From: Catenulispora sp. EB89
Lineage (GTDB): Bacteria; Actinomycetota; Actinomycetes; Streptomycetales; Catenulisporaceae
Length of the DNA: 64,000 nt
Assembly (NCBI RefSeq): GCF_041261445.1
Contig: NZ_JBGCCU010000003.1
Location: 62,001 to 126,000, forward strand
Direction: 5' to 3'
A program made the position numbers and the translations under genes. The notes under the pieces are model-generated. The model was not told the DNA's origin. It worked only from the letters and a program-made list of their open reading frames with translations, and did not search any database. Below, in pieces: positions 8,544 through 24,842 of the stretch. Position 1 is the first letter of the stretch. The number at the start of each line of letters is the position of its first letter.

Positions 8544-8619
8544 GCGGCGGTCGCGGCACGCCGGTGAGGGGTAGGTTCAGGCGGATTGGGCGCGCAGGGT
8601 AGCCCAGTGCGCGATCTTC

Positions 8620-9354: not shown

Positions 9355-9408
9355 GACGCGGAGCCTAGGGCCCGCGCTCGACGGGAGTCAACAGAACGTT
9401 CGTTCTCT
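9337..9408. promoter_or_regulatory. Two direct copies of AACGTTCGTTCTCT (TetR-type operator candidates)
   Basis: The 14-mer AACGTTCGTTCTCT occurs at 9337-9350 and again at 9395-9408, 58 bp apart. The second copy sits in the perfect inverted repeat AGAACG-TT-CGTTCT. One copy covers the first codons of the hydrolase gene and the other the stop of the upstream aldo-keto reductase. The form (GAACG..CGTTC) is typical of TetR/AcrR operators. Confidence 0.6.
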
Positions 9409-10486
9409 AGTACCGCACGTCGCTTTGCAGAAGCGGCGGGTAGACCGCCGATTCCTCGCCGTCGACGGTCGTTCCGGCGAACTGGAGCATCGCACGCTGC
9501 GCGCCGTGCATCGGGGCCGGATAGTTCAGCGTCGGGGCGGAGACCTCGTTCAGGGTCCGTAGTTGCTCGGCGCTCAGGGTGACGTCGAGCACGGCGAGGT
9601 TGGACTCGAGGTGCGTGATCCGGCGGGCCCCGATGATGGGGACGACGTTGCCCTGGGCTCGGAGCCAGGCCAGGGAGACGGCTGCGGAGGTCGTGTCCAG
9701 CGCTTCGGCGATCGCGGCAACGGCCTCGATGACCTCGTACTCGGCCTCGGTCGGGCCGCCGACGAAGGAGGTGCGGGCCGAGTCGGTCACCTGCGTGCCG
9801 CGCCGGTATTTGCCGGACAGGAAGCCGTTCTTCAGGGGGCTCCAGGGGACCAGCGTCATGCCCTGGTCGTGTGCCAGAGGGCTGAGTTCGCCTTCGACCG
9901 TGCGGGCCAGCAGCGAGTACTCGACCTGCAGGGCGATCAGCGGGGTCCAGCCGCGCAGGAGGGCGGTCGTCTGGGCCTGCGCGGTGAACCACGCGGGGGT
10001 GTTGGAGAAGCCGAGGTAGCGGATCCGGCCGGCGCGCACGAGGTCGTCCAGAGTCTGCATCGTCTCCTTGACCGGGGTGTTGCGGTCCCAGTTGTGCAGC
10101 CAGTACAGGTCGAGGTAGTCGGTGCGCAGGCGGCGCAGGGTCTGATCGAGTTGCCGGCGGATCGAGCTCCGTCCGGCGCCGCCGCCGTTGGGGTCGCCGG
10201 GGTGCATGTTGAAGAAGAACTTCGATGCCAGGACGGTGTGCTCGCGGCGTCCGGGCCGGGCGGCGAAGTAGTCGCCGAGGATCGCCTCGGAGTGGCCGTT
10301 GGTGTAGAAGTTGGCCGTGTCGATGAAGTTGCCGCCCTGGTCGAGGTAGGCCTCCAGGATCTTCTCCGACTCCGCGACGCTGCATCCCGCGCCGCCGAGA
10401 TCCTCGCCGAAGGTCATGGCGCCGAGCGCGAACGGGCTCACGCGCAGCCCGGAGCGGCCGAGGGTGACGTAGCTGTCGAGTGTCAT
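9407..10486 (-). CDS. Aldo/keto reductase
   Basis: NADPH-dependent oxidoreductase of 359 aa with the TIM-barrel AKR fold. The catalytic residues are visible: Asp in NFIDTANFYTNGHSE with the Tyr, Lys in VLASKFFF and His in LDLYWLHNWD; the cofactor-binding end is IIGARRITHLESN. Start is ATG 10486 with GAGGAG 7 nt upstream; an in-frame TTG at 10501 was rejected. It is divergent from an AraC regulator, a common pairing for AKR genes induced by aldehydes or xenobiotics (family knowledge). Confidence 0.93.
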   Translation of the reverse strand: MTLDSYVTLGRSGLRVSPFALGAMTFGEDLGGAGCSVAESEKILEAYLDQGGNFIDTANFYTNGHSEAILGDYFAARPGRREHTVLASKFFFNMHPGDPNGGGAGRSSIRRQLDQTLRRLRTDYLDLYWLHNWDRNTPVKETMQTLDDLVRAGRIRYLGFSNTPAWFTAQAQTTALLRGWTPLIALQVEYSLLARTVEGELSPLAHDQGMTLVPWSPLKNGFLSGKYRRGTQVTDSARTSFVGGPTEAEYEVIEAVAAIAEALDTTSAAVSLAWLRAQGNVVPIIGARRITHLESNLAVLDVTLSAEQLRTLNEVSAPTLNYPAPMHGAQRAMLQFAGTTVDGEESAVYPPLLQSDVRY

Positions 10487-11626: not shown

Positions 11627-12736
11627 TCACTCGACGCTCGCCACGGCCTTCAGACGATCGCCGGAAGAAAGAACAAGCTCCCCCAGTTCGGCATTGACCG
11701 CTCCCAGCCACGCGACCAGGGCGGCGCCGTCCACGTCCAGCTCGGCCGCGAGGTCCCGCTCGTCGAAGCAGGAGCCGAGGTACGCGGCGCGGGCCCACCG
11801 CACCGCCAGCCGGTCCGTGAGCTCGGATTCGGTGTGCTCGAGTCCGAGTCCGTCGCGATCCAGCAATGCGACCGCGTGGAGAAGCGTCAAGTGGACGTAC
11901 ACGTGGAACGCCGCCAGAGTGCGGTCCGCGGTAAAACTGCGGCCGGGCCCTCCCCACGGCACCGGGGCACGGTGGCTGGCAGCATCCTGATAACCACTAC
12001 GGAGCATGCGACGGGCCAGGCCGAAGTCGACGAGTTTCTGGTGCAGGGACTCATGAAGTACCGAGTCCGCGCCGGCCAGGGGGTCGGCCGCGACGCGTTC
12101 GTTCAGGTAGATCACGAGCGGCGTGGCGCTGATGTAGGCGCTGTGCGGCGCACCCTGGAACAACACGACGCCGTCGACGAGCGCCGCCGTCTCGGGAGCC
12201 ACGGTCGGCAGGCACGCGTAGAGCAGCCGGAACGCCCGATCGACCGAGTCCTGCGAAGGCGCGGCCGGTTCCTGGAGCGCGATCTCGACGGTGAATCCGT
12301 CGTGGGCCATGGCCGCGTGGAAGCGCTGCGCGAGCTGTTGTCCGAGCGTGTCGTCGACGTCCGTGAGTGTCGGCGGCCGGAGCAGGCCAGCCGTCGCGGG
12401 AGCCAGAGCCGAGACCGGCACCGGCGGAACGGGCTCCAGGCTCCGCGCATACGCCACCAGCTCGACAAGCTGTCGCAGCCGTTCGTCGGAGCGCTCCTCG
12501 CGGTCGCGCAGCCGCAGGAAGGCCTCGTCGGCGAATCCGCGCAGCAGCGACCGGCTTTGCGGGCTGTGGGCCTTCTCGGCGAGATCCGCGAACGGCGGGA
12601 AGATCTTGCCCAGCAAGGCGTAGAGGCCGCCGTAGTAGACGTCTGCGTTGGCTCTCAGGGCGCTGCTGTCGCCGAACATCCCGCGCGCCAGATGCCGGTC
12701 CAGCTCACGGAGCCTGGCCAGCTCTGCGTCCGTCAC
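11627..12736 (-). CDS. HExxH-motif peptide-modification enzyme (peptide beta-hydroxylase type)
   Basis: A 369-aa protein resembling the family of HExxH enzymes found beside RiPP precursors, named in databases as alpha-ketoglutarate-dependent peptide beta-hydroxylases (family knowledge, from memory). The key site is SVLHESLHQKL with His228, Glu229 and His232. Downstream, HRAPVPWGGPGRSF and TLAAFHVYVHL match the family's usual RAPW..P and histidine-containing helix. Start is GTG 12736 with AGGAGG about 8 nt upstream, overlapping the stop of the preceding recognition protein (GTGA), so the two are translationally coupled. In this locus the likely substrate is the precursor at 14632-14814, perhaps its Asp/Asn residues (inference). 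A zinc-peptidase role is the alternative. Confidence 0.78.
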   Translation of the reverse strand: MTDAELARLRELDRHLARGMFGDSSALRANADVYYGGLYALLGKIFPPFADLAEKAHSPQSRSLLRGFADEAFLRLRDREERSDERLRQLVELVAYARSLEPVPPVPVSALAPATAGLLRPPTLTDVDDTLGQQLAQRFHAAMAHDGFTVEIALQEPAAPSQDSVDRAFRLLYACLPTVAPETAALVDGVVLFQGAPHSAYISATPLVIYLNERVAADPLAGADSVLHESLHQKLVDFGLARRMLRSGYQDAASHRAPVPWGGPGRSFTADRTLAAFHVYVHLTLLHAVALLDRDGLGLEHTESELTDRLAVRWARAAYLGSCFDERDLAAELDVDGAALVAWLGAVNAELGELVLSSGDRLKAVASVE

Positions 12737-13035
12737 TGTTCGGCCTCCTGCTGTTCCACCGACTCGATCAAGCCGACTCCACTGAGTCCGTCCAGGACAC
12801 GGTCGAAGCGGCGTTCGGCCTCGTCCGCGCCGAGGCGTCCGCCGACCGTCGCCGCAAAGCGCTCCGCCGCCGCCTGCCGCGGGTGTCGGGTGACGAGCTC
12901 CAGGACGTACAGACTGACCTTGTCGAGGATCAGGACGTAGGGCTGCCGCCCCGTGAAGGCGAATGCGTTCGACAAGTCGTCGTACGGCCGGACGTCCCAC
13001 TCCTGCGACCTGCGGTATCCAACACTCAGGGTCAT
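12733..13035 (-). CDS. PqqD-like RiPP recognition protein (RRE)
   Basis: A 100-aa protein that probably binds the leader of the precursor and delivers it to modifying enzymes. From about residue 30 the pattern is that of PqqD: YVLILDKVSLYVLELV, a helical stretch, then ERRFDRVLDGLSGVGLIE as the last helix with the terminal Gly-Leu. PqqD-like folds are winged-helix domains that bind leader peptides as an extra beta strand (established). Start ATG 13035 has GGGAGG 5-6 nt upstream. It lies between the exporter (14 bp gap) and the HExxH gene (4 bp overlap). Assignment rests on pattern, not on a profile score. Confidence 0.68.
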   Translation of the reverse strand: MTLSVGYRRSQEWDVRPYDDLSNAFAFTGRQPYVLILDKVSLYVLELVTRHPRQAAAERFAATVGGRLGADEAERRFDRVLDGLSGVGLIESVEQQEAEQ

Positions 13036-13049
13036 GATTCCTCCCGCGC

Positions 13050-14330
13050 TCATCCGGTCGGGGCGGCGGCCTCGGATCGGGCCGCGCGCAGTGTCGGGGC
13101 GACTAGGGCGGCCACGCCGACGATGCTTCCGAGAACCCCCGCCGCACCGAGCACCACCGCGCTCGTCCGGACGGGGTCGGCGTGCGCCAGGTCCACCGCC
13201 GGGCCGGCGATGAGCAGCCCCAGCGGCGTCGCCGCCTGCACCAACGAGCGCCGGATCCCGAAGACCTGGGCCTGGCGCTCCAACGGCACCGCCGTCTGCC
13301 ACAGCGTCTGGTAGGCGCTGGTGACGCTGGGCAGGACGAACGCCGCGCAGAACGCCGACACCAGCCACCACGGCGCCTGTCCGCTGACCGCGGTCAGCAC
13401 CGGACCCGCCAGGCACGCGGCGGCGACCCCGGCGGGTACCAGAACACTGCTTCTCACCCGGCGCATGATGACGACGGCGCTCAGTCCCCCGAGCACCGCG
13501 CCCAACCCGGCGGCGGACGACACCGACCCCAGGATCACCGCGTTCTGCCCCGAGCGCAGCATCAACAGCGGCTTGCTGAGCACGGCACCGACCGCCGAGA
13601 CGAAGTTCAGGGTGAAGAAGACGAAGACCAGCCCGCGCAAGGTCGGCCGGCTGGCGATGAAGCTCAGGCCGGCCCTCATGGTTCGCAGGGCGCTGTCCCG
13701 TCCGGCGCCTGCTCCCGCCCGGGTTTCGGCATTGTCCGCCTGCGGCTCCGCGCGATCGCCGGGAACCCTGGTGAACGCCAGCGTGACGAAGCCGGCCAGG
13801 TAGCTGAGCAGGTCCACGAGCAGCACCGCGGGAAGCCCGGCCAGCTTCAACAGCAGCCCGGCGGCCAGCGGCGCGATGACGGAGCCCGCCGATTCGCCGA
13901 AGCCGATCTGCGCGTTGGCGCGGGCCAGACCGTCGGCGCCGGCCAAGGTGGTGACGACTTTCGAGTAGGCGAGCCAGTGTGCTGCTTCGAGGACGCCCTC
14001 AGTCACGCCCACGAGGTACAGGTGCCACGTGCGCAGGTCGTGATGGTGCGCCAGAAGCAGGAGAACCACGGCGACGACGGCCAGAAGCGCGTCGCACGAC
14101 AGCATCACGGACTTGGCGCTCAGCCGGTCGACCCACACGCCCAGAAATGGCGAGAAAAGTATTCCCGGCAGCAGATTGGAAAGCAACAGAAAAGAAAGCG
14201 TGGACGCGCGGCCGTCGGTCTGCCAGGCCCACAACGTAATGGCGAACCAACAGATCTGTCCACCTACCGCGGACGCGAATTGTCCGAGCCAGACCGTGGT
14301 GGCGGCGGATCTCAGAGACCGCGCGCGCAA
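13050..14330 (-). CDS. MFS transporter, likely product exporter
   Basis: A membrane protein of about 426 aa with ~12 hydrophobic helices, of the MFS_3/enterobactin-exporter type: WLGQFASAVGGQICWFAITL is helix 1 and GVWVDRLSAKSVM matches the conserved loop 2-3 motif. It heads the leftward operon and is divergent from the precursor, fitting export of the mature product. The start is uncertain: no ATG or GTG lies in frame near the hydrophobic start. TTG 14330 is used here, but its GGGGAG is 20 nt away, while an ATC codon at 14342 is 8 nt from it. Confidence 0.85.
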   Translation of the reverse strand: MRARSLRSAATTVWLGQFASAVGGQICWFAITLWAWQTDGRASTLSFLLLSNLLPGILFSPFLGVWVDRLSAKSVMLSCDALLAVVAVVLLLLAHHHDLRTWHLYLVGVTEGVLEAAHWLAYSKVVTTLAGADGLARANAQIGFGESAGSVIAPLAAGLLLKLAGLPAVLLVDLLSYLAGFVTLAFTRVPGDRAEPQADNAETRAGAGAGRDSALRTMRAGLSFIASRPTLRGLVFVFFTLNFVSAVGAVLSKPLLMLRSGQNAVILGSVSSAAGLGAVLGGLSAVVIMRRVRSSVLVPAGVAAACLAGPVLTAVSGQAPWWLVSAFCAAFVLPSVTSAYQTLWQTAVPLERQAQVFGIRRSLVQAATPLGLLIAGPAVDLAHADPVRTSAVVLGAAGVLGSIVGVAALVAPTLRAARSEAAAPTG

Positions 14331-14631
14331 AGTCGATCCGATGACCGCACCTCCCCGTGAACAGCACCGACGATCCCTGAGAGTAGCAGCGCCGCTCGGG
14401 GCGAACGCGATGACGGTGTTGCGTTCAACCGTCGAAACCGGGAAGTCCGCAGGCTCGGACAGCGGATTCAAGCACTTGACTGGCCGCTCAATCGCGTTCA
14501 ACTGTCCAGCCGGGCAATCCGCTTTGTGTGGACAGTGGACTCCGGCATTGGCTAACTTCACGCCGAGCCGATCACATTCGGCTTGTGAGTAAAGGCACCG
14601 GTGCACCGTGCCCTGAGAAAGGGGAAAGCCC
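14331..14631. promoter_or_regulatory. Divergent control region of the RiPP locus
   Basis: This 301-bp gene-free stretch separates the exporter and precursor operons. It contains a direct repeat GCGTTCAAC-Y-GTC at 14421-14433 and 14494-14506 (one mismatch), an inverted repeat ACTGTCCA / TGGACAGT at 14501-14508 and 14529-14536, and a short hairpin GTCCG-CAGGCT-CGGAC at 14445-14460. TTGACT at 14476-14481 could be a -35 element. The repeats are the best candidates for a regulator's binding site; no pathway-specific regulator gene is inside the locus. The precursor ribosome site (AAGGGGAAAG) ends the region. Confidence 0.55.
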
Positions 14632-14814
14632 ATGCAGGAATCGAGCACGCTGCAGGATCTCGAGGCGACGCTGGCCGCCACGTTCGAGGCCGGCGACTGG
14701 GGTCTGGACGCCGCGATCGCGGAGCAGTCCGGGACCGAGCTGGTCGACACCTCGATCCGTCCGATCAACATGGACCTCAACGACCTGATGGGCAGCCGTC
14801 CGGTCGGTAACTGA
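14632..14814 (+). CDS. Putative RiPP precursor peptide
   Basis: A 60-aa peptide with a strong ribosome site (AAAGGGGAAAG, 4 nt before ATG). The N-terminal part is acidic and helical (STLQDLEATLAATFEAGDWG) and looks like a leader; LQDLEATL fits an RRE-binding segment. The C-terminal part after about residue 40 (SIRPINMDLNDLMGSRPVGN) is a likely core, with Arg43-Pro44 and Arg56-Pro57, Asp48/Asp51 and Asn46/Asn50/Asn60. It has no cysteine, and the only Ser/Thr of the proposed core are Ser41 and Ser55, so lanthionine or thiazole chemistry is unlikely. Position at the head of the enzyme operon and the adjacent recognition domains support the call; cleavage site is unknown. Confidence 0.78.
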   Translation: MQESSTLQDLEATLAATFEAGDWGLDAAIAEQSGTELVDTSIRPINMDLNDLMGSRPVGN

Positions 14815-14868
14815 GTCCAGAACGGGCCCGACCCTCCCACAGGTGACACACGGGGACGGGACTAACCC

Positions 14869-14910
14869 GGGGATGGCCGGCCGGCCGCACCGCGGCCGCC
14901 GGCCATCCCC
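14869..14910 (+). terminator. Strong hairpin between precursor and enzyme genes (attenuating terminator)
   Basis: GGGGATGGCCGGC at 14869-14881 pairs perfectly with GCCGGCCATCCCC at 14898-14910, and the stem continues inward with GGCCGC/GCGGCC, giving 19 pairs with one bulged C and a 3-nt loop. No T-tract follows. It sits 55 bp after the precursor stop and 22 bp before the next start. Such hairpins often let precursor transcript exceed enzyme transcript in RiPP operons. Confidence 0.75.
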
Positions 14911-14931
14911 GCACGCGACGGGGATCACCGC

Positions 14932-16065
14932 ATGAACCTTTCCGGCAGCCCGAGCGGTGCCGTGCTGCGCGCCGCCATCCGGGTCCCGAGCCCGGCGGTC
15001 GTGTACGACCTGGACCTGGTCACCGAGGCCGTGGCTGGGCTGCGGGCGGACCTGGGCGCCATCCCCGACGCCGCGATCCTGTTCGCCGTGAAGGCGAACC
15101 GGTTCCCGCCGGTGCTGCGGCATCTGGCGGGCCTCGGAGTCGGCGCGGACGTGGCCGGGCTCCGGGAGTACGAAGCAGCCGTCGAGGCCGGGATGACGCC
15201 GATCACCGCGACCTCGCCCGGTTTCGACGCGGCGGCGCTGCGCCGGCTGAGCGGCCTGGACGTCCCCGTCGACGTCAGCAGCCGATCGCAGCTGGAGGGC
15301 TGGATCGCGGCCGGCGGACTGCCGGCGGACGGGGAGATCGGCCTGCGGATCAGGGTTCCGGTGGCTCCGGTGGAGCGCGCGGGCACCGGAGTGGCGTGGA
15401 GCCGCTTCGGCGTCGATGCCGCGGATCCGGAGTTGCACGCGCTTCTGAAGCAGCATCGGCTGACGGTGACCCGGCTGCACGCACATGCCGGCGAGGTGAT
15501 GACAGCGCGACGGGCCCGGGGCCTGATGACCGCGCTCCTTCAGTGCTGCACGGCTACGTTCCCCGACGTCTCAGTCCTCAACATCGGCGGCGGCCTGGCC
15601 GGTCTGTACGCCGACCCGGCCGAGGCGCGGCGGGCCTGGGCAGCGGTCGCGGCGGCGCTGAGCGAGTTCGCCGAGACGACCGGACGACGGCTGAAGCTGA
15701 TCGTCGAGCCCGGGATGCTGCTGACCGCCTTGGCCGGCTACCTCGTGGTGACGGCCCGGGGAGTCGACGCCCATCCCGGCGGGGTCCCCGCCGTCACCGC
15801 CGACGCCTCCGGATGGAACCTGCTGAGCTGGACCCGGCCCCGGCTGGTCGCCCAGATCCCGGACCGGGGCGCGCCGCCGCGGCGCTACGCGCTGGTCGGC
15901 AACAGCTGTTACGAGGAAGACGTACTGGTCCCGGATCTGGCCGCCGGCGAGGTCCGAGTGGGAGACCGGCTGGTGCTGAACGCGGCCGGCGCCTACGTGA
16001 CAAGCATGGCGCGGTCTCTGCACGGTATGGAGCCGCCTCACGAGGAGGTCGTGCGCGGAAGATGA
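14932..16065 (+). CDS. PLP-dependent fold-type III enzyme (Orn/DAP decarboxylase-like)
   Basis: A 377-aa protein of the alanine racemase/group IV decarboxylase superfamily. The PLP lysine is Lys54 in ILFAVKANRF; other conserved parts are LHAHAGEV, the phosphate-binding LNIGGGLAG, IVEPGM, the cysteine-containing GNSCYEEDVLV and the active-site Tyr in AAGAYVTSMA. Known relatives decarboxylate free basic amino acids or diaminopimelate. Within this operon the substrate could be a free amino acid or an ornithine generated on the peptide; sequence does not decide. It is a paralogue of 17106-18719 and overlaps the next gene by ATGA. Confidence 0.85.
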   Translation: MNLSGSPSGAVLRAAIRVPSPAVVYDLDLVTEAVAGLRADLGAIPDAAILFAVKANRFPPVLRHLAGLGVGADVAGLREYEAAVEAGMTPITATSPGFDAAALRRLSGLDVPVDVSSRSQLEGWIAAGGLPADGEIGLRIRVPVAPVERAGTGVAWSRFGVDAADPELHALLKQHRLTVTRLHAHAGEVMTARRARGLMTALLQCCTATFPDVSVLNIGGGLAGLYADPAEARRAWAAVAAALSEFAETTGRRLKLIVEPGMLLTALAGYLVVTARGVDAHPGGVPAVTADASGWNLLSWTRPRLVAQIPDRGAPPRRYALVGNSCYEEDVLVPDLAAGEVRVGDRLVLNAAGAYVTSMARSLHGMEPPHEEVVRGR

Positions 16066-16565
16066 TGAAGATGACTGAGATGCTGCTCAGAGACCCGGCG
16101 GCGGTGCGGGCGCTGGCCGAGGCCTGGCTGTGGGACTTCGGTGCCGCCGACGATGCCGGGACCGAGGTTCTGGAGGGCGTCGGCAGCCGGTGCGCGGTCG
16201 TGGACCTGGGCGGCGCGCCCGGCGGCCTGATCAGCACCCTGAAGGAGATGCTCGACGAGTCGGCGCTGCCGGGCCCGGCGACGCGCGCGGTACTCCGTCG
16301 CTATGAGCCCGGCGACTACACCCCCGCGCACCGGTTCCGCGACGAGGCCGTCGGCACGGAGGGCGGCTGGACGGTGCTGTGCGCCCTGGACGACTCCGAC
16401 CTCGACGCCCTCACGCACTGGGACGGCGAGCGCTTCACCAGGACGTTCGACCGCTGCGGGGTGGCGCTGCGGCTCCAGCCGGAGTGGTGGTGCTGGACCA
16501 GCCCGGTGCGCGGCGGCGTCCGGCACACGTTGGCGATCGGAGGGGACGAGCTGTGGACGAGCTGA
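16062..16565 (+). CDS. Degenerate 2OG-Fe(II) oxygenase-like protein (probable pseudoenzyme)
   Basis: A 167-aa protein whose C-terminal half aligns with the next gene product: YEPGDYTPAHRF matches YDRGDYILPHRD, and WWCWTSPVRGGVRHTL matches AWHWVDPVRSAVRYTL. In this copy the iron-binding Asp is Phe92 and the distal His is Cys144; only His90 and the 2OG-binding Arg154 remain. It therefore should not hold iron in the usual way. It may partner the intact paralogue as a heterodimer or as a peptide-binding subunit (inference). The start overlaps the previous stop (ATGA). An alternative is a changed metal site rather than loss of catalysis. Confidence 0.72.
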   Translation: MMKMTEMLLRDPAAVRALAEAWLWDFGAADDAGTEVLEGVGSRCAVVDLGGAPGGLISTLKEMLDESALPGPATRAVLRRYEPGDYTPAHRFRDEAVGTEGGWTVLCALDDSDLDALTHWDGERFTRTFDRCGVALRLQPEWWCWTSPVRGGVRHTLAIGGDELWTS

Positions 16566-17089
16566 TCGTGGTACCGGATGTCGTGCCGAACTGCGCGGAG
16601 ATCATCGAGATCGCTGAACGCCACCGGCGGCTGTTCGAGGACTATCCGTCGGCGGCGGCGCTGGAAAACCGGGGCGATCACGATCCGCTGAACCCGTACC
16701 GCGACTCCGAGTACGAGGACGACGACCGGTACCACGTCCTTCAGGCCACCGCGATGCCGGTGGAGCTGCGCCGGGCGATCCTCGCCGGCCTGGCGGACGA
16801 GGACTCGGACCTGAGCCGCTTCTACTTCCAGATCAACCGCTACGACCGCGGGGACTACATCCTCCCGCACCGCGACAAGCTTCAGCAGGGTCTTTACATG
16901 CTCAGCGACTCGGCGGCCGACGGCCTGGTGGTCCAGGCCGGCGACGGATCGATGGCCTTCGTCGCCGACCGGGCCGGGACGCTGGTGCACCACGACCCGG
17001 CGGCCTGGCACTGGGTCGACCCGGTCCGGTCCGCGGTGCGGTACACGCTGGTGACCATTTCCGCCCGACCGCCGCGCAAGCGGTCCTGA
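16553..17089 (+). CDS. 2OG-Fe(II)-dependent oxygenase
   Basis: A 178-aa oxygenase with a complete facial triad: His106 and Asp108 in LPHRDK, His153 in AWHWVDP, and Arg163 in AVRYTL for 2-oxoglutarate. Such enzymes hydroxylate or otherwise oxidise unactivated carbons using O2 and 2OG (established). Size and end pattern suit the prolyl-4-hydroxylase-like group, and the proposed core holds two Arg-Pro pairs, so hydroxylation of Pro, Arg or Orn is possible (inference). Start GTG 16553 has GGAGGGG about 8 nt upstream and overlaps the paralogue's end by 13 bp. Confidence 0.85.
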   Translation: MDELIVVPDVVPNCAEIIEIAERHRRLFEDYPSAAALENRGDHDPLNPYRDSEYEDDDRYHVLQATAMPVELRRAILAGLADEDSDLSRFYFQINRYDRGDYILPHRDKLQQGLYMLSDSAADGLVVQAGDGSMAFVADRAGTLVHHDPAAWHWVDPVRSAVRYTLVTISARPPRKRS

Positions 17090-17105
17090 TCGCCCGGAGG
17101 GATTC

Positions 17106-18719
17106 ATGTCCACCCACGTCGCCGCCGATGCGCCGACCGGCACGCCGAGCACACCGAGCACACCGAGTACGCCGAGCACGACGGCCACGACGGTCGCCGG
17201 GGTCGCCACGCCGGCCGGCACCGCCGCGCCCGGCTCGCCGACAGCAGCCAGCCCGACCGCCACGCCCGAGCAGCCGACCGCACGCTCCAGCACCGCCGCG
17301 CCCACGGCACAGCCCGCGCCCAACACCCAGCCATCCACCCCGCCGGCCACGCCCGAGCCGCTGACCGCACGCTCCAGCACCGGCGCGCCCACGGCACGAC
17401 CCGCGCCCAACACCCAGCCATCCACCCCGCCGGCCACGCCCGAGCCGTCGACCGCACGCTCCCGCGCCGCCGCGCCCACGGCACAGCCCGCACCCAACAC
17501 CCAGCCGTCCGCCCCGCCGGCCGCGGTCGAGCCGCTGGTGTCCGACCCGCCGACCGCGCTCTTCAACCAGGCGCTGCGGGTGGGGACCCCGGCGCTGGTG
17601 TACGACTACCCGGGCATCGTCGCCTCGGTCCGGCGGATGCGCGAGGACATCGGCGTCGTCCCCGGTGCGCAGCTGAACATGGCGGTCAAGGCCTGCCACA
17701 CCCCGGACGTGCTGCGCCGCCTGGCCGCGCTCGGACTCGGTGGCGACGTGGCCAGTGTCGGCGAGCTGGCGTTGGCGCAAGAAGCCGGGTTCGGCGAGAT
17801 CACGACCACCGGTCCGGCGTTCGGCCCGGCCGACTTCGGCGCGTTCCGCGCCGCCGGAGTGGTCGTGGATCTGGACTCTGCGGATCAGCTCGACATCTAC
17901 GGGTCCGAATATCCGGGTACAGAGATCGGCCTGCGCGTCCGCGTCCCGCTCCCCGAGGCGTTGCAGACCAACACCACCTTCGGCGTCAACAGCCGGTTCG
18001 GCGTCTCCATCACCGATCCGGCCGTGCACGACGCGCTGCGCCGCCACGGCCTGACCCTGACCCGGCTGCACCTGCACACCGGTCAGATGTCGCCCGAGGC
18101 CCTGGTCTACAAGACCGACTACACCCTGAAGGTCGCGGCGCGGTTCCCCGGCGTCCACACCATCGATCTCGGCGGCGGCTTCTTCCACCTCTACACCCAC
18201 CGCGGCCGGGCCCGGGCCGCGTTCGCGCGCGTCGCCGAGATGGTCCAGGCCTGGCAGGCTCGGCACGGCCGCGCGATCGCGCTCCGGTTCGAGCCCGGCG
18301 GCGCGATCCTGGCCGCGCACGGCTACCTGTTCACCGAAGTCCGGTCGGTCACCGGGCATCATCCGCACTACGGGACGCGGGTGGTGACCGTCGACTCCTC
18401 CGCCTGGAACCTGGCGCCCTGGCACAAGCCGACGGTCCTGGCCGCCGACCCCGCGGCCGACGGCGGCGTCGTGGAGCCGGGCCTGATCGCCGGGAACACG
18501 TTGTACGAGAACGACTTCTTCGCCACCGGCATCCACGGCGAGCTGGCGCCGCTGACGTTCCCGCGCTGCCGTCCGGGCGACCGGCTCGTGATCACCGCGG
18601 CCGGCGCCTACACCATGACGAACTCGCGGCGGTTCAACCGGATCCCGGCCCCGACGGAGTTCGCGTTCGAGGACGTCGGCGGCGAACTGCGGCGCCTGGA
18701 AGCAGCACCGTTCGCATGA
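17106..18719 (+). CDS. PLP-dependent fold-type III enzyme with repeat-rich N-terminal extension
   Basis: A 537-aa paralogue of the enzyme at 14932. The catalytic part starts near residue 140 (PALVYDYPGIV): PLP Lys195 in NMAVKACH, LHLHTGQM, DLGGGFF, RFEPGGAIL, GNTLYENDFF and TAAGAYTMT. Unlike its paralogue it lacks the cysteine in the GxxxYExD segment (Leu instead), so the two may differ in reaction. The first ~138 residues are a disordered Thr/Pro/Ala/Ser tract with short TPS repeats and three 29-residue repeats. The start is secure (GGAGGG 5 nt before ATG), so the tract is translated. Such tails are very unusual on this fold; it may be a flexible tether or a protein-binding tail (inference). 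Confidence 0.83.
   Translation: MSTHVAADAPTGTPSTPSTPSTPSTTATTVAGVATPAGTAAPGSPTAASPTATPEQPTARSSTAAPTAQPAPNTQPSTPPATPEPLTARSSTGAPTARPAPNTQPSTPPATPEPSTARSRAAAPTAQPAPNTQPSAPPAAVEPLVSDPPTALFNQALRVGTPALVYDYPGIVASVRRMREDIGVVPGAQLNMAVKACHTPDVLRRLAALGLGGDVASVGELALAQEAGFGEITTTGPAFGPADFGAFRAAGVVVDLDSADQLDIYGSEYPGTEIGLRVRVPLPEALQTNTTFGVNSRFGVSITDPAVHDALRRHGLTLTRLHLHTGQMSPEALVYKTDYTLKVAARFPGVHTIDLGGGFFHLYTHRGRARAAFARVAEMVQAWQARHGRAIALRFEPGGAILAAHGYLFTEVRSVTGHHPHYGTRVVTVDSSAWNLAPWHKPTVLAADPAADGGVVEPGLIAGNTLYENDFFATGIHGELAPLTFPRCRPGDRLVITAAGAYTMTNSRRFNRIPAPTEFAFEDVGGELRRLEAAPFA
17277..17537 (+). repeat. Three 87-bp tandem repeats (29 aa each)
   Basis: Units start at 17277, 17364 and 17451 with the shared ACCGCACGCTCC and run in frame, encoding TARSSTAAPTAQPAPNTQPS and related text ending TPPATPEP. 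A shorter 9-bp repeat (CACACCGAG-like, about 17143-17180) precedes them. High DNA identity between units indicates recent duplication. Confidence 0.9.
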
Positions 18720-19966
18720 CCACGGATCAGCCGACGGACTCCCGCCGCGTCCTCGTCGTCGCGCCGGGCTACATCCGGACCGGCGGCCGCGATGACGGCC
18801 AGGTGTTCTGGAACCCCGAGAGCGGGCACGAGATCAGGCTCGGCAACGCCCTGGCCGAGCTGGCCGCCCGGTTCGCGATGCCGTCGTCCGTAGACGTGGT
18901 GGTCGCCGCGGTGCCCGGCGCCGCGCGCGAATCCGCGCGGAACGCGGTGACCGCGCTGGAGGAGGCGGGGCTGCTCGTCGGCTACCGCACCGCCGCCGCG
19001 GCGGCGCCCGCGCCGGCTCCGGCGGCCACCGGCACCGGCCTATTCGGCGCCCCGGTGCTGGACGCACCGACGGCGCTGACCGGGGACACGACGGACGTGG
19101 TGGTCATCGGCATGCCCTACGACGTCGGCTCCACCCACCGTCCCGGCTCCCGCTTCGCGCCGGACGAGCTGCGGCAGATCAGCACGGCCCTGTTCCAGTA
19201 CCGCTGCGACGCCGGCGAACGGCCGCGCGGACTGCACGACCCGCTGCGCGGCCGGGCCGTCCTCGACGGCGTCCGGATCGCCGACCTGGCGAACATCTCC
19301 CAGCCGGTGCACACCCGCAACGGTGACTCCCTGGAGGGCCTGCACCGCCTGGCGCGCTCGGCGTTCCAGGCCGGACGGTTCGTGCTGACGCTCGGCGGCG
19401 ACCACTCGATCAGCCTGCCGCTGATCACCGCGGCGCTGGACGTGCACGGCCGGATCGGGGTGCTGCACGTCGACGCGCACTCCGACTTCGCCGCCCCGCG
19501 CACCGACGACTGGCGCCGCGACTGCCACCACGGCAACTTCATGAGCTGGGTGGTCGGGGACGCCAGACTCGGCGTGCTCGCGCAGTTCGGCGTCCGCCAG
19601 CTCACCGAGCACGAGATCGAGCGGCCGGAGCACGTCCGCGTCTGGCCGGGACGCACGGCCGTGCTGACCGATCCGGACTCGGTCCTGGCCGAGCTGCCCG
19701 AGGACATCCCGTACTACCTGACGATCGACGCCGACGGCCTGGATCCCTCCGCGCTGCCCGACACCGGCACACCGCTGCCCGGCGGGTTCGGCCACGCCGA
19801 GCTCGTCACGCTCCTGGAGCACCTGGCCGGCCACCGGCGCCTGATCGGCATGGACTTCGTCGAACTCATTCCCGGCGACCGGGAGACCTCGACACTGACG
19901 GCGGCGGACCTGATCCTGCGCGTCCTCGACGCCGCGACCGCGTCCGACAAGGGAGAACGGGGATGA
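18716..19966 (+). CDS. Arginase-family enzyme with fused PqqD-like recognition domain (probable peptide arginase)
   Basis: A 416-aa ureohydrolase. The C-terminal ~320 residues hold the full binuclear Mn site: GGDHSISLP (about 227), HVDAHSDF (about 251) and LTIDADGLDPS (about 338), with GMDFVELIP near the end. Residues ~12-95 are extra: VFWNPESGHEIRLGNALAEL, then a helix and ARESARNAVTALEEAGLLV, which follows the PqqD pattern of beta hairpin, helices and a closing LEEAGLL. Free-amino-acid arginases lack this. Peptide arginases that turn Arg into ornithine in RiPPs are known (OspR type). A fused leader-binding domain would explain substrate choice; the likely targets are Arg43 and Arg56 of the precursor. 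ATGA overlaps join it to both neighbours. Confidence 0.82.
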   Translation: MTTDQPTDSRRVLVVAPGYIRTGGRDDGQVFWNPESGHEIRLGNALAELAARFAMPSSVDVVVAAVPGAARESARNAVTALEEAGLLVGYRTAAAAAPAPAPAATGTGLFGAPVLDAPTALTGDTTDVVVIGMPYDVGSTHRPGSRFAPDELRQISTALFQYRCDAGERPRGLHDPLRGRAVLDGVRIADLANISQPVHTRNGDSLEGLHRLARSAFQAGRFVLTLGGDHSISLPLITAALDVHGRIGVLHVDAHSDFAAPRTDDWRRDCHHGNFMSWVVGDARLGVLAQFGVRQLTEHEIERPEHVRVWPGRTAVLTDPDSVLAELPEDIPYYLTIDADGLDPSALPDTGTPLPGGFGHAELVTLLEHLAGHRRLIGMDFVELIPGDRETSTLTAADLILRVLDAATASDKGERG

Positions 19967-21540
19967 GCGAGCCGGCCTGGTACGAGCGCACGGCCGAGGC
20001 CGTGAACGGGAACCGGATCGAGCGGGAGATCCTGCTCGATCTCGTCGAACGGTGCGCGAAAGCCGCTGCCGAACCCGATCCCGCCCTGGACCGGCTGGTC
20101 GAGGACCTGGCACGGCTGTCCGACCATCCCGAGCCGGGATCGCTGGATCTGGAACGGCGCCTGGATTCGGTTTCGCAGCAGCTACGACGCGCGTTGCTCG
20201 CGCGAGCACACAGCAGCATCGATCCCTACTTCCGCTCCCCCACGCATGAGCGTCCGACCGTGCTGCCCTCTGGCAGAACCATGAAATACAGCTACGAACG
20301 CAGCGCGGATCCCGCATGGCTGGAGGAACGCCTCGGCCGCTCCGCTCCGGACGCGCCGAACGCCACCGGCACCGCGAACGCCACGGACGGCTGGCACAGC
20401 GAGCATGTCGTGTTCGGCAGCGGCACGGCGGCCATCAGCGCGGTCCTCAACTGCTATCTGCGGATGGTCCCCGCGGACGTCGGCCATCCCGTGCGCGCAG
20501 GGGTGTGGGCGAGCTACTTCGAGACCGACATGGTCTTCGAGTTCAGGAGTTCGCCGCTGTTCGGCTGGGAGCGCCTGACCGATCTCGGCAAGGCCGTGTC
20601 GCAGGGTGCTTATGACCTGCTGTTCGTGGAACCCGTCCGGTACAACTGGGACCTGGACGCGGTAGACCTGCGGGACGTCCTTTCCCGGTGGCGCGCACGG
20701 GGCGCGGGTCGGCCGCGCTGCGTGGTGTTCGACACCACGCTCAGCTCGTTCACCTGGCCCTCGCGCAAGGTCCTGGAGGCGCTGCGCGACGGCGACCCGC
20801 TGCTGGTCGTCGAGCTGCGCTCCGGGCTCAAACTGGACCAGCAGGGACTGGAGCTCGGAAACCTCGGGCTGGTGACGGTCCACAGCGTCGACGAGGACGC
20901 CGGCACGCCGAGCGCCGAACAGTTCGCGGGCCATCTGCGGATGAGCCGTGCGGTGACCGGGACGTCGGTGCCGGTGGACGCGGCCGCCGCGCTGGACGTG
21001 CCGATCGTCCTGGATCCCGCGCTGACCGCCCGGCACGCCGGGCAGGTGTTCCTGGCCAACCAGTGCCTGGCCGCCGAGCTGGAGTCCGAGGCGGGGCTGT
21101 TCAGCGCGGTGGGACATCCGTCGCTGCCGGACGTGCCGGCCGGGACGCCGAAGCACGCGCCGTTCGTGGTGTGCCGGCTGGCCGAGGACGAGATCGCGCA
21201 CCACGGGCTGCTGCTGGCGGTGGTCCGGCACGAGGCCTTGCGGCGCGGCCTGCTGCTGGACTGGGGATCGAGCTTCGGGTTCCGCGGGCACCGGTGCGAG
21301 ACGATCCTGCCGCGGCTCAAGGACCGCAAGGGCTTGTTCAAGATCGCGATGGGAGCCAGGTCCGGGCCGTCTCTGGCCGGTACCGTCGAGTTGCTGCGGG
21401 AGATGGCGCGGTTCCCCGACTTCCGGTCCTTGCGGGCCGCCTACCCGGACGTGCCGCAGATCGATCTGGCCAAGTACGCGGACCCGGCCGATGCGGTGGA
21501 GGAAGGAGGGGATCAGCTTGCTGAGAAGGTGCGCGCATAG
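19963..21540 (+). CDS. PLP-dependent fold-type I enzyme with helical N-terminal extension
   Basis: A 525-aa protein with aminotransferase/Cys-Met-lyase-like features: phosphate loop VFGSGTAAISAVLN, pyridine-binding Asp in CVVFDTTLSS, and the likely Schiff-base Lys290 in LRSGLKLDQQG. The first ~120 residues are helical and charged and are not part of the usual fold. The reaction is unclear; acting on an ornithine amine made by the upstream arginase (transamination to a semialdehyde) is a testable idea, not a conclusion. It ends the operon and overlaps the convergent GNAT gene by 28 bp. Confidence 0.78.
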   Translation: MSEPAWYERTAEAVNGNRIEREILLDLVERCAKAAAEPDPALDRLVEDLARLSDHPEPGSLDLERRLDSVSQQLRRALLARAHSSIDPYFRSPTHERPTVLPSGRTMKYSYERSADPAWLEERLGRSAPDAPNATGTANATDGWHSEHVVFGSGTAAISAVLNCYLRMVPADVGHPVRAGVWASYFETDMVFEFRSSPLFGWERLTDLGKAVSQGAYDLLFVEPVRYNWDLDAVDLRDVLSRWRARGAGRPRCVVFDTTLSSFTWPSRKVLEALRDGDPLLVVELRSGLKLDQQGLELGNLGLVTVHSVDEDAGTPSAEQFAGHLRMSRAVTGTSVPVDAAAALDVPIVLDPALTARHAGQVFLANQCLAAELESEAGLFSAVGHPSLPDVPAGTPKHAPFVVCRLAEDEIAHHGLLLAVVRHEALRRGLLLDWGSSFGFRGHRCETILPRLKDRKGLFKIAMGARSGPSLAGTVELLREMARFPDFRSLRAAYPDVPQIDLAKYADPADAVEEGGDQLAEKVRA

Positions 21541-22532
21541 CCCGCCCACACGTGGGCCCGCCGGAAACCCGCCTGTTCGTAGACGTCGAGCTGCGGAGCC
21601 GGGTCGTCGGACCGGACGCTGAGCGCGGCGCGCTGGTAGCCCTGTTCGGCGTGGGCACGACCGGCGTGCGTGAGCAGGGCGTCGACGACTCCGGTGCCGC
21701 GTGCCGAGCGCCGGGAGCCGACGCCGGTGATCCAGGCCTCGCGGACGCCTGTACGTTCGGTGTCGGTCGGGTAGTGGTCGGCGAGCAGGACGCCCACCAC
21801 GGCCCCGGAGGCGTCCCGGGCGAGGAACGAGGATTCCGGACGGAAAGAAGGGGCGGATGTGGCCCGATGCCAGGAATCCGCGGTGTGCTGCGGGTTTCCG
21901 GGCGACGAGGAGAAAGCGTCATTCCAGACCACGCGCGCCGGCTCGGCGAGATCGCTCGAGTAGGAAATGATTTTCCCCGTCCACACCGAGTCCCGCGATA
22001 CCGCGTGGCTCGATTTCGGATTCCGCGATATCGGATCCTGCGATATGTCCGCGGGCAAGTCGCGTTCCAGATCGGTGAACCAGCATTCCGGCTCGAATCC
22101 CCGCTCCAGGACCGTCAAAGCGTGCGCGGGGTTGCGGTCACTGACCCGGCTGTGCAGCGTGACGCTGTGCCCCGCAGCGGCGGCGCGTGCCGCCGCCCAT
22201 TGCTCGAACCAGCCCACCACCGCCCGACCCAGACCTTGTCGGCGCAGGTCGGGAGCTACGCCGCCGTCCACCACCGCGTGCTCGCCGCCGTGACCGCCGC
22301 GACTGCCGTGTCCGCCGCGCGGCCGGATCACGCCGTAGGCCACCAGGCGGTCGGCGTGGAACGCGGCGAAGGAGTCCCCGGACGAATCCGGGCCGGTGCA
22401 CGCGGCGAGTTGGACGGCGAGGTCTTCCAGCCCGAAGTTCTCGCCCCGGCGGTCGACTTCTTCGATGCTCTCCAGAAGATGCGACCAGGAGTGGAGATCG
22501 GACGTTCGCAAGGCACGCCACCGCAGTTCCAT
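21513..22532 (-). CDS. Tandem GNAT acetyltransferase
   Basis: A 339-aa protein with two GNAT domains. The first has the acetyl-CoA loop PDLRRQGLGRAVVG and the end SDRNPAHALTVLERGFEPE; the second has TGVGSRRSARGTGVVDALL and LDVYEQAGFRRAH. The layout resembles mycothiol synthase and antibiotic acetyltransferases. The linker between domains carries degenerate repeats (SQDP/SRNP/SRDS). It is convergent with, and overlaps, the last enzyme gene and is divergent from the kinase-like gene. It may acetylate an amine of the product, for modification or self-protection (inference). Confidence 0.85.
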   Translation of the reverse strand: MELRWRALRTSDLHSWSHLLESIEEVDRRGENFGLEDLAVQLAACTGPDSSGDSFAAFHADRLVAYGVIRPRGGHGSRGGHGGEHAVVDGGVAPDLRRQGLGRAVVGWFEQWAAARAAAAGHSVTLHSRVSDRNPAHALTVLERGFEPECWFTDLERDLPADISQDPISRNPKSSHAVSRDSVWTGKIISYSSDLAEPARVVWNDAFSSSPGNPQHTADSWHRATSAPSFRPESSFLARDASGAVVGVLLADHYPTDTERTGVREAWITGVGSRRSARGTGVVDALLTHAGRAHAEQGYQRAALSVRSDDPAPQLDVYEQAGFRRAHVWAGYARTFSAS

Positions 22533-22578
22533 GACTATATCTTAGTATTGATCCAAGGCGGAGTGAAGGGAATCGAAG

Positions 22579-23541
22579 ATGGAAACAGAGGGCGAATCCA
22601 GCGATGCCTACACGGAGGTCTTCGACCGGTTCGGCATTCAGGCCGCTGACATACCGGACAGGTCCTGTTATGTGTACTCGCCGGTATTCCGCACCGTGGT
22701 CGGCGGCCGTCAGGCGGCGGTGAAGCGGACGCGCAGACCGATCGGCGCCGCCGACGCGCTGGCGAGCTGGCTCGGCGAGCTGTCCCGGCGGGGAGTCCGC
22801 GTGGTCCAGCCGCTGCCGGTTCCGAACAACCCGGCGGCGGTCGGCGACCGCTGCTGGGTCGCCTACCCCTGGATATCCGGCACGCCCTACGACGGCTCCG
22901 CCGAGCACATCGCGCTCGCCGGCGACCTGCTCGGCCGGATGCACGCCGCGGCCGGCGGACCGGAGGAGATCCCGCGGTTCACGTGGCCGGACCACGATCA
23001 GGCCTCGGTCGACGAGGACGTCGAAGGACTCACCGCGGTCTTCAAGCGCCACGCCCCGGAGCTGCTGGACCACGTGTTGCCGCGGCTGTCGTCGTGGCTC
23101 CAGGACTTCATGGCCGAGACGCTGCCGCCGATCCGCGACGCCGGGCTGCCGGTCGTCGTGGCGAGCATGGATTTCCGGGCCAACAACCTCGTCTACACCC
23201 CGGACGGCCCCATCCTCATCGACCCGGACAACGCCGAGACGGCCGCGCGGATCCTGGATCTGGCGCTGGCCGTCCTGCTGTTCCACAACGAGGCCGAGGG
23301 CGCGCCGTCCCGGTTGTTCGACGTGAAGGAGTGGGCTGTCTTCCGCGACGCGTACGTGCAGCATGTGGAACTCACGCCCGATGAGCGGCGGCTGTGGCCG
23401 GTCGCGCTTCGGTACATGCTGCTGGAGTGGTGCGTCTGGTCGCTGATCGCCGCGGAGGAGTGGGGCGACTGGGAACGTCCGCAGCAGCGGGACTTCCTCA
23501 CCGCTTTGGCCGACGCCGACCTCGGGGCCTACGAACTGTGA
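22579..23541 (+). CDS. APH-like phosphotransferase
   Basis: A 320-aa protein of the aminoglycoside-phosphotransferase/choline-kinase fold. Visible elements are the ATP-binding Lys in QAAVKRTRRP, the catalytic loop SMDFRANNLVY, where the usual His of HxD is Met but Asp and Asn remain, and the metal-binding LIDPDNAE. Start ATG 22579 has GAAGGGA about 8 nt upstream. A strong hairpin directly after the stop marks the end of this side of the locus. It may phosphorylate the product as self-resistance, or be an unrelated small-molecule kinase. Confidence 0.82.
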   Translation: METEGESSDAYTEVFDRFGIQAADIPDRSCYVYSPVFRTVVGGRQAAVKRTRRPIGAADALASWLGELSRRGVRVVQPLPVPNNPAAVGDRCWVAYPWISGTPYDGSAEHIALAGDLLGRMHAAAGGPEEIPRFTWPDHDQASVDEDVEGLTAVFKRHAPELLDHVLPRLSSWLQDFMAETLPPIRDAGLPVVVASMDFRANNLVYTPDGPILIDPDNAETAARILDLALAVLLFHNEAEGAPSRLFDVKEWAVFRDAYVQHVELTPDERRLWPVALRYMLLEWCVWSLIAAEEWGDWERPQQRDFLTALADADLGAYEL

Positions 23542-23589: not shown

Positions 23590-24438
23590 TCAGCTGACGG
23601 CCTCGGCGGCGTCCTTGATGAGGTCGGCGACGATCCTCGGGTGGCTGAGCATCGCGACATGGGACGAGGTCGGCACCTCGACGATCTTGCGGGCGTTGGC
23701 GCGGGTGTACATCCAGCGCTCGCACGCCGGCGGGATCGCCTTGTCCCGGCCGGCGACCAGGCCCCAGACCGGGATCGTCTTCCAGGCCGCGGCGGTGGTC
23801 GGGTAGGTAAACGAGGCGGCGTCGAACGGCCGCTGCGTGGCCTGGAGCACCCGGAAGGTCTCGGTCGGGATGTCGGCGGCGAAGGCGGCCTGGCCGTCCT
23901 TGCTCAGATACAGGTCGGTGCCGGTGGTGCCGTCGGCCTTCGTGTACGGCACCGGCACGCTCACCGGCAGGACCTCGCTGCCGGGGAACTTGTTGATCAG
24001 GTCGCCCTGCGTCTCGCCGACGTCGGGCACGAACGCCGAGATGTAGACCAGCGCCTTGACGTTCGCCTTCCCGGCGGCGGCGTTGGTGATGACCGTGCCG
24101 CCCATGGAGTGCGCGACCAGCACGACCGGGCCGGTGATCGAGTCCAGCAGGCTCGCGATGTAGGGGGCGTCGGTGGGGATGCCGCGCAGCGGGTTCGCCC
24201 CGCAGATCGTGGTGTAGCCCCGGTGCTGGAGCTCCGCGATGGTGGCGTTCCAGCAGGACGAGTCGGCGTAACCGCCGTGCACCAGGACGATCGTGGGCTT
24301 CACCTTCGGGTTCCCCTTCGTGGTGGCGGCCGGGGCCGTGGCGGACGCCGTTCCTTCCTGACTGGCGACCAGCGCCGCCGACCCAGCCAGCACCGCTCCG
24401 GCGGCCAGCACCTTGCGGCGGGACATTTCTGTACTCAT
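23590..24438 (-). CDS. Tat-exported alpha/beta hydrolase
   Basis: A 282-aa hydrolase with a twin-arginine signal (EMSRRKVLAAGAVLAG) and probable cleavage after ASA. Catalytic parts are IVLVHGGYADSSCW, the nucleophile elbow AHSMGGT, an acid in VAGRDKAIPP and His in TSSHVAMLSHP. It is a paralogue of the cytoplasmic hydrolase at 8620-9354. Start ATG 24438 has GAGGAG upstream; the GTG four codons earlier is less likely. Likely folds in the cytoplasm before export. Substrate unknown. Confidence 0.88.
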   Translation of the reverse strand: MSTEMSRRKVLAAGAVLAGSAALVASQEGTASATAPAATTKGNPKVKPTIVLVHGGYADSSCWNATIAELQHRGYTTICGANPLRGIPTDAPYIASLLDSITGPVVLVAHSMGGTVITNAAAGKANVKALVYISAFVPDVGETQGDLINKFPGSEVLPVSVPVPYTKADGTTGTDLYLSKDGQAAFAADIPTETFRVLQATQRPFDAASFTYPTTAAAWKTIPVWGLVAGRDKAIPPACERWMYTRANARKIVEVPTSSHVAMLSHPRIVADLIKDAAEAVS

Positions 24439-24842
24439 GGGACTCCTCACACAGTGGATCGGTGTGGCATGCGATGGACACTAGGAGGAGGGGTTTCGGG
24501 GCGGCTTCCGTAATGTGACTTAGATTCGCGAGCGCGTGGCGCAGTAGGCATACACCGGCCATTGCCGCGCGCGCCGGTGGCCTGTTCTCGGTCGCGCGGC
24601 TGTCCACCTGATGTTCACCTTCGGCGGCGCGTGGCCGCCGTCGCTCGCTATCAGGGCTCGTGAGCTGCGGCTATAGCCCATCGATATGGGCTATGACAGC
24701 GATAGCCGCCGTCTTTGTGAACTCTTCGCGCAACACCTTGTCCCGGCGCCGCACCGCGTCTTCGATGTGCGGTGAGCCGCTCACTCCAGTCTGCGCAGAC
24801 TGTCCTTCCCCACCCCTGTCTTCGACGACGAGGAAGTTCGTC
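24439..24842. promoter_or_regulatory. Divergent intergenic region with an ATAGCC palindrome
   Basis: This 404-bp gap separates the Tat hydrolase and the phosphoesterase. At 24673-24694 lies ATAGCCCAT-CGAT-ATGGGCTAT, a 9-bp perfect inverted repeat; a third half-site at 24702-24707 forms a second, overlapping repeat GGCTAT-N7-ATAGCC. This is the only structured element I see and is a probable operator. The phosphoesterase ribosome site (GAGGAAG) is at the right end. Confidence 0.5.

Follow-up and report, generated by a model that had tools for sequence, protein, structure and literature searches.

The window analysed here, positions 62001-126000 (64,000 nucleotides) of a contig from the 11.9-Mb genome of a Catenulispora actinobacterium from soil, contains between window positions 11627 and 23541 a block of genes that, judged from its sequence, very likely is a biosynthetic locus for a ribosomally synthesized and post-translationally modified peptide (RiPP), probably of an undescribed kind. 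The conserved core of this locus consists of a short precursor peptide gene, two fold-III pyridoxal phosphate (PLP)-dependent enzymes (PLP3a and PLP3b), an arginase with an extra N-terminal domain (ARG) and a fold-I PLP enzyme (PLP1), and it seems likely that ARG acts on the precursor. As the evidence base comprises three arginase-type loci, two of which are nearly identical, the claim is kept short of certainty.

Conservation of the precursor and the enzyme core

Plasmid pWHA07 of Mammaliicoccus sciuri (Bacillota) carries one tight operon encoding a PLP3b-like enzyme, an arginase with the N-terminal domain, a PLP3a-like enzyme, PLP1, an ABC exporter and a GNAT acetyltransferase. Directly upstream of this operon, at positions 8494-8577 of the plasmid locus (L008), lies an unannotated 27-aa open reading frame (ORF), MTENIRNATPSISLDLDLMGGSRPRLK, behind a perfect Shine-Dalgarno sequence (AAAGGAGG). 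Comparison of the C-terminal ends (DLDLMGGSRPRLK in the M. sciuri ORF and DLNDLMGSRPVGN in the window precursor) showed that the C-terminal part of this ORF matches the window precursor (INMDLNDLMGSRPVGN); it ranked on top of the 222 short ORFs in the locus, and 16 of 20,000 shuffles gave an equally good motif match. The M. sciuri gene at 8652-9815 and window PLP3b are reciprocal best matches, and the presence of the catalytic Cys in one fold-III enzyme and its absence from the other are kept in both phyla. Conserved linkage across genera, which the first-pass annotation of this stretch had named as support for a new class, was found: Catenulispora and M. sciuri share four enzymes and the precursor motif. 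Homologous enzymes that never accompany a precursor-like ORF, which would have spoken against the proposal, were not encountered, M. sciuri having a matching ORF. The plasmid itself came from chicken-farm air. When plasmids were searched by tblastn with PLP1 as query, two records and no others were matched.

The HExxH protein, the stand-alone RiPP recognition element (RRE), the pair of 2-oxoglutarate (2OG) oxygenase-like proteins and the MFS exporter of Catenulispora are missing from the M. sciuri locus, and the class definition is therefore narrowed to the four-enzyme core with its precursor. Thus, the arginase, the PLP enzymes and the precursor of the originally proposed set recur in M. sciuri, but Catenulispora has added the HExxH protein, the stand-alone RRE and the pair of 2OG proteins, which do not define the class. 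A direct homology between the GNAT proteins of the window and of M. sciuri was not detected by blastp.

Within the genus, the nearest relative carrying the locus is Catenulispora rubra DSM 44948, in which the whole block plus its flanks is syntenic with 86-96% protein identity. The 60-aa precursor ORF of the window, preceded by AGAAAGGGGAAAG, is identical in C. rubra at the amino acid level (100%) and at 182 of 183 nucleotides, i.e. one synonymous and no amino acid change in 60 codons, whereas the other genes of the locus differ at 3-15% (nonsynonymous) and 9-22% (synonymous) of their codons. This synteny, together with a precursor free of amino acid changes among diverged genes, places the locus beyond chance. 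The leader of the precursor likely runs to ...INMDLNDLMG and is then followed by the short, Arg-containing core SRPVGN. Between the precursor and the PLP3a gene a hairpin (14869-14911) was predicted with an RNA fold z of -4.9, equalled by none of 200 shuffles; C. rubra keeps its main stem, the wider stretch there not being significant (z = -0.67). A hairpin 3' of a precursor gene is a common arrangement that yields more precursor than enzyme, and this one is a probable attenuator favouring the precursor mRNA.

The precursor was present in two of ten Catenulispora genomes, and the locus is therefore patchy in its distribution. When 148 relatives and three overlapping actinobacterial samples (395, 396 and 392 genomes) were searched, we found PLP1 homologues in three genomes, all Catenulispora; a weak match in one further actinobacterium (G604) probably represents an ordinary Cys/Met enzyme. 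One contig scan of genomes with PLP1 returned C. rubra only, and no match was obtained in viral contigs scanned with PLP1 and ARG or in phages searched with PLP1. The third Catenulispora homologue of PLP1 (L004, 47% identical) belongs to a different cluster (G007 C7, 1667-13852), which also contains an aminotransferase-like gene, a fused ABC exporter, a PhyH-type protein, an aldo/keto reductase, and genes resembling those of methyltransferases and ATP-grasp enzymes. It further includes two 2OG-like genes in tandem; the metal ligands are apparently present in one and missing from the other, which recalls the pair of the window.

Gene content and predicted functions

The genes of the block are as follows:

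11627-12736, minus strand: HExxH protein, candidate alpha-ketoglutarate (aKG)-HExxH-type peptide beta-hydroxylase (TIGR04267, 39.3 bits against a cutoff of 40, E 6e-10)
12733-13035, minus strand: small PqqD/RRE-like protein, putative stand-alone RRE in the divergent operon (AlphaFold2 model and structure matches)
13050 to about 14330, minus strand: MFS exporter, start codon uncertain (PF07690, E 2e-28; TIGR00900, E 3e-51)
14632-14814, plus strand: precursor peptide gene, 60 aa (conservation in C. rubra; C-terminal motif in the M. sciuri ORF)
14869-14911, plus strand: hairpin between the precursor and the PLP3a gene (RNA fold)
14932-16065, plus strand: PLP3a, fold-III PLP enzyme of LysA/ornithine decarboxylase (ODC) type with catalytic Cys (GNSCYEED; PF02784, E 1e-18; TIGR01048, E 8e-35)
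16062-16565, plus strand: OG1, degenerate 2OG-oxygenase-like partner without HxD...H (33% identity to OG2 over 82 aa)
16553-17089, plus strand: OG2, 2OG-Fe(II) oxygenase-like, HRD...H ligands intact (PF13640, weak, E 0.007)
17106-18719, plus strand: PLP3b, LysA-type fold-III PLP enzyme without catalytic Cys (GNTLYEND; PF02784, E 3e-19)
18716-19966, plus strand: ARG, ureohydrolase-family arginase with RRE-like N-terminal domain of about 110 aa (PF00491, E 7e-52)
19963-21540, plus strand: PLP1, cystathionine-gamma-synthase (CGS)-like fold-I PLP enzyme (SGTAAI, D257, K290; weak PRK07582 match)
21513-22532, minus strand: two-domain GNAT acetyltransferase (PF00583 in two stretches, E 2e-17)
22579-23541, plus strand: APH-type phosphotransferase (kinase), cluster membership uncertain (PF01636, E 6e-13)

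Every gene named in the first-pass annotation is present in the divergent layout it described, with a coding signal for each, and the close packing is likewise confirmed, most neighbours overlapping by 4-13 nt or lying less than 50 nt apart. The GNAT and the APH-type kinase lie in the same stretch and had been left unmentioned; the kinase is 94% identical in C. rubra and had no counterpart in the plasmid loci. The absence of radical SAM, LanB/LanM, YcaO and ATP-grasp genes was borne out as well, within what was tested. The window gave no radical-SAM match, the nearest on the contig being about 60 kb from the cluster, and no MNIO was found in the genome; for LanB, LanM, YcaO and ATP-grasp, the 10 cluster and 20 neighbouring proteins gave no Pfam match at the E-value limits used, which remote ATP-grasp or YcaO relatives could escape. 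Two alpha/beta hydrolase genes (window 8620-9354 and 23590-24450), about 41% identical, stand one on each side of the cluster, and this related pair possibly marks an insertion or duplication.

ARG has the motifs of a canonical ureohydrolase (GGDHS, HVDAHSDF, DADGLDP) and a complete set of metal ligands (H230, D253, H255, D257, D338 and D340). Its N-terminal domain was compared by hhalign with a PqqD profile built from 22 sequences (probability 75%, E 2.6e-5, controls <1%; the structure model reached pLDDT 32). The other Catenulispora ureohydrolases match columns 116-411 only, and the domain was seen in no other ureohydrolase found in the genomes of the family. For the 12733-13035 protein, the four best Foldseek chains of its AlphaFold2 model are RiPP leader-binding domains, with TbiB1 (probability 0.95, E 0.2) and the CteB leader-binding domain as top matches, and PqqD, LynD and TruD further down the structure match list. 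By VIA, the top four (Z 6.7-7.4) are again all RiPP leader-binding, the best (7.4) being a lasso B1 protein. The model has a mean pLDDT of 62, for which reason the assignment as an RRE (beta-hairpin plus winged helix) is of moderate strength. Direct hhalign comparisons among the alignments of the small RRE, the ARG N-terminal domain and the ThiF N-terminus were uninformative.

The HExxH protein carries a HESLH motif; its matches to kinases were at chance level. In the 2OG pair announced earlier, OG2, 96% identical in C. rubra, is likely active by its intact ligands, but OG1 has lost the HxD...H ligands (HRF / WCW) in both Catenulispora species and is degenerate.

The two fold-III enzymes both keep the PLP Lys. 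In PLP3a the catalytic Cys lines up with that of a solved diaminopimelate (DAP) decarboxylase, so that score, Lys and Cys all agree with the DAP/ornithine decarboxylase family PF02784; PLP3b agrees in score and Lys only, with a Leu at the position of the LysA catalytic Cys. PLP3b also starts with a Pro/Ala/Thr-rich extension of about 135 aa (17106-17510) containing TPST and near-identical longer repeats, which is absent from the M. sciuri homologue. The fold-III enzymes of the locus form a clade separate from the other fold-III enzymes of the genome (support 100/99); the tree does not separate PLP3a from PLP3b, and they are told apart by reciprocal best hits and by the Cys difference. Other LysA/ODC-like fold-III genes, not close to PLP3a or PLP3b, occur in the genome at C8 77542-102367, C6 330606 and C9 27327. 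PLP1 is conserved in loci of four genera, including its SG(M/T) motif, the Lys (K290) and the Asp (D257). It falls below the Pfam threshold for PF01053 (26.5 against a cutoff of 27 for the Enterococcus faecalis homologue), and the profile of its family hits 1n8p, a cystathionine gamma-lyase (E 2e-5), pointing to a remote member of the cystathionine synthase family.

Proposed pathway and alternatives

We infer the substrate order, the aminopropylation, the leader/core border and the immunity function as follows. The leader of the short precursor (60 aa; 27 aa in M. sciuri) would be bound by the stand-alone RRE and the N-terminal domain of ARG, with the leader ending in DLMG(G) and a core that may be SRPVGN or SRPRLK. 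ARG would convert the core Arg (SRP) into ornithine, upon which PLP1, by gamma-substitution, would transfer a 3-amino-3-carboxypropyl group from S-adenosylmethionine (SAM) or activated homoserine onto the ornithine delta-amine. PLP3a and PLP3b, which may pair as a heterodimer in which one active site bears the Cys, would then decarboxylate this group to a 3-aminopropyl, giving a spermidine-like side chain. In Catenulispora only, the HExxH protein and OG2/OG1 would add hydroxyl groups. Export would proceed through the MFS protein (Catenulispora) or the ABC exporter (M. sciuri). The producer would be protected by the GNAT, and possibly by the APH-type kinase as well, through modification of the new amine. 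An acetyltransferase being present in each cluster of both branches (a second branch, with ThiF, is described below), the two-domain GNAT is a probable self-protection gene and the kinase a possible second one.

As a whole this explanation is the one we favour, though tentatively, and the aminopropylation step in itself is doubtful. A RiPP with an Arg-to-ornithine step, as foreseen in the first-pass annotation, is well supported by the conserved precursor, the RRE fold and the cross-phylum homologue with its motif, the hydroxylation being retained as a Catenulispora extra; of the PLP chemistry it invoked, the enzymes are confirmed, and their aminopropyl reading is our own more specific suggestion. 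Several observations weigh against the favoured pathway. PLP1 identity between the phyla is 22-28%, which amounts to remote family membership, and the PLP1 of L004 stands in a 20-kb stretch without arginase or any fold-III partner, so that the class cannot be defined by PLP1 alone. The match to the M. sciuri ORF is short, comes from a single locus and was equalled in the shuffles mentioned above. The N-terminal domain of the M. sciuri arginase alone did not match the PqqD profile, and structure prediction of ARG failed at its pLDDT of 32. Because its synonymous sites are also nearly frozen, the conservation of the precursor may partly be due to recombination or RNA-level constraint.

Within a RiPP pathway, PLP1 could instead remove the ornithine delta-amine by deamination or transamination, yielding a semialdehyde, which would cyclise onto the backbone, and the fold-III pair could epimerise or otherwise tailor the product. 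The conservation of ARG and the PLP set in M. sciuri without another modifying enzyme would agree with this, as would the PLP-dependent aminotransferase known from the daptide RiPPs (PMC10036551), but the closest family of PLP1 is cystathionine synthase/lyase rather than the aminotransferases, and the fold-III relatives are decarboxylases, making this route rather unlikely.

That the PLP enzymes produce a free amino acid or amine building block, which is subsequently joined to the peptide, would find a close parallel to mccABCDE in two further plasmid clusters, where PLP1 and a fold-III enzyme occur with ThiF (PF00899), an MFS exporter and an acetyltransferase:

L009, 4303-12544: E. faecalis LR962333 cluster, ThiF, PLP1 and fold-III enzyme, with an unannotated short ORF
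L011, 5358-12180: Lactococcus lactis p001F cluster, ThiF, PLP1 and fold-III enzyme, with an unannotated short ORF

The short ORFs just upstream of ThiF (MNEEGKTTEMTFEDLFVEIISVERT in E. faecalis and MEENDIITENIDFEEIFSDLEMRVRT in L. lactis) both end in RT, the similarity of the pair alone being weak. Neither ThiF nor ATP-grasp nor another ligase is present among the cluster genes of Catenulispora or M. sciuri, however, and for these loci a separately made building block is improbable. Each plasmid homologue ends with a GNAT or AAC(3) gene. A PepF-like peptidase relative is also encoded in the E. faecalis locus; in L. lactis the fold-III gene, the exporter and second genes are split, which suggests decay of this copy. 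The ThiF branch was partly foreseen in the literature, since a review notes PLP-dependent enzymes, decarboxylases and N-acetyltransferases near ThiF-type RiPP genes in Enterococcus and Streptococcus; the word arginase is absent from it (PMC12250964).

Arginase, LysA/ODC and CGS folds usually work on free amino acids, and the locus might accordingly encode a non-RiPP, polyamine- or amino acid-like small-molecule pathway whose small ORFs are regulatory leader peptides or chance. We consider this quite improbable in view of the RRE structure, the exclusive N-terminal domain of ARG, the HExxH peptide hydroxylase candidate, the precursor identity in C. rubra and the motif match in M. sciuri. Finally, a biphenomycin-like pathway, in which the BipC arginase, the BipG ornithine hydroxylase and the BipH HExxH enzyme work together (PMC12707348) and arginase and hydroxylases would here share one Arg, is scarcely credible, as the genome has no MNIO and the window neither radical SAM nor an FRF-type core, and ARG belongs to PF00491, not UPF0489; the missing core enzymes MNIO and radical SAM exclude biphenomycin-type membership.

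Comparison with known systems

A full-text search of the open-access literature yielded no paper describing the arginase-plus-PLP enzyme set, and no described RiPP class in that literature is known to use three PLP enzymes together with an arginase. Daptides resemble the locus as RRE-guided RiPPs with a PLP-dependent enzyme in both Actinomycetota and Bacillota, but rely on an alcohol-dehydrogenase-type oxidative decarboxylase, an aminotransferase and a methyltransferase acting on a C-terminal Thr, none of which belongs to the core described here. The biphenomycins and pbs peptides combine a peptide arginase, ornithine hydroxylase, aKG-HExxH enzyme and MFS exporter, for which the window locus has candidates; unlike them, it lacks MNIO, B12-radical SAM and an aromatic FRF core, has an arginase of another family and adds three PLP enzymes. 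The peptide arginases OspR, FlmR, OhkR, BipC and PbsE convert Arg to ornithine in a RiPP core, as ARG would. Characterised members have EEH-type, DxHxD and DIDLD-type motifs (BipC belonging to the UPF0489 superfamily), and EEH(N/H)EAF has been given as a family motif (PMC12703449). ARG lacks the EEH(N/H)EAF-type motif of OspR/FlmR/BipC-type arginases and is instead a canonical PF00491 ureohydrolase with a fused N-terminal domain.

For the proposed transfer, precedent exists in muraymycin biosynthesis, where the fold-I PLP enzyme Mur24 uses SAM as donor to put an aminocarboxypropyl group on an amine (PMC10491745), giving an aminopropyl linker; its substrate is a nucleoside, however, and Mur24 is ACC-synthase-like, PLP1 CGS-like. 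If the proposed mechanism is true, aminopropyl-ornithine would be new among peptide modifications, peptide arginases would have arisen independently a second time, and PLP-based alkyl transfer would be linked to peptides of the microcin C kind; the 27-aa M. sciuri ORF, as a minimal substrate, makes the enzymology directly testable. A further precedent for the proposed chemistry is the similar enzyme pair LolC and LolD of loline.

In microcin C (mccABCDE), MccD takes the aminocarboxypropyl group from SAM and transfers it, MccE then decarboxylates it with its PLP domain, and the GNAT domain of MccE confers immunity (PMC12250964, PMC10491745). The locus shares with this system a very short peptide, the proposed logic of aminocarboxypropyl transfer followed by a PLP decarboxylase, a candidate GNAT immunity gene and MFS export, and its plasmid relatives L009 and L011 also a ThiF/MccB-type enzyme. 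Membership in the microcin C family fails, no MccB/ThiF adenylyltransferase being found in the clusters of Catenulispora or M. sciuri; moreover, a CGS-like PLP enzyme would stand in for MccD, no nucleotide is expected, and arginase, RRE and hydroxylases are added. In its widest form, which we regard as unlikely, the comparison would have an RRE-fused canonical arginase and a CGS-like and paired fold-III PLP system aminopropylate ornithine, building a polyamine on a ribosomal peptide without methyltransferase-type chemistry and spread between Actinomycetota and plasmids of Bacillota, with the ThiF branch rebuilding the microcin C scheme by means of a PLP enzyme in the place of MccD.

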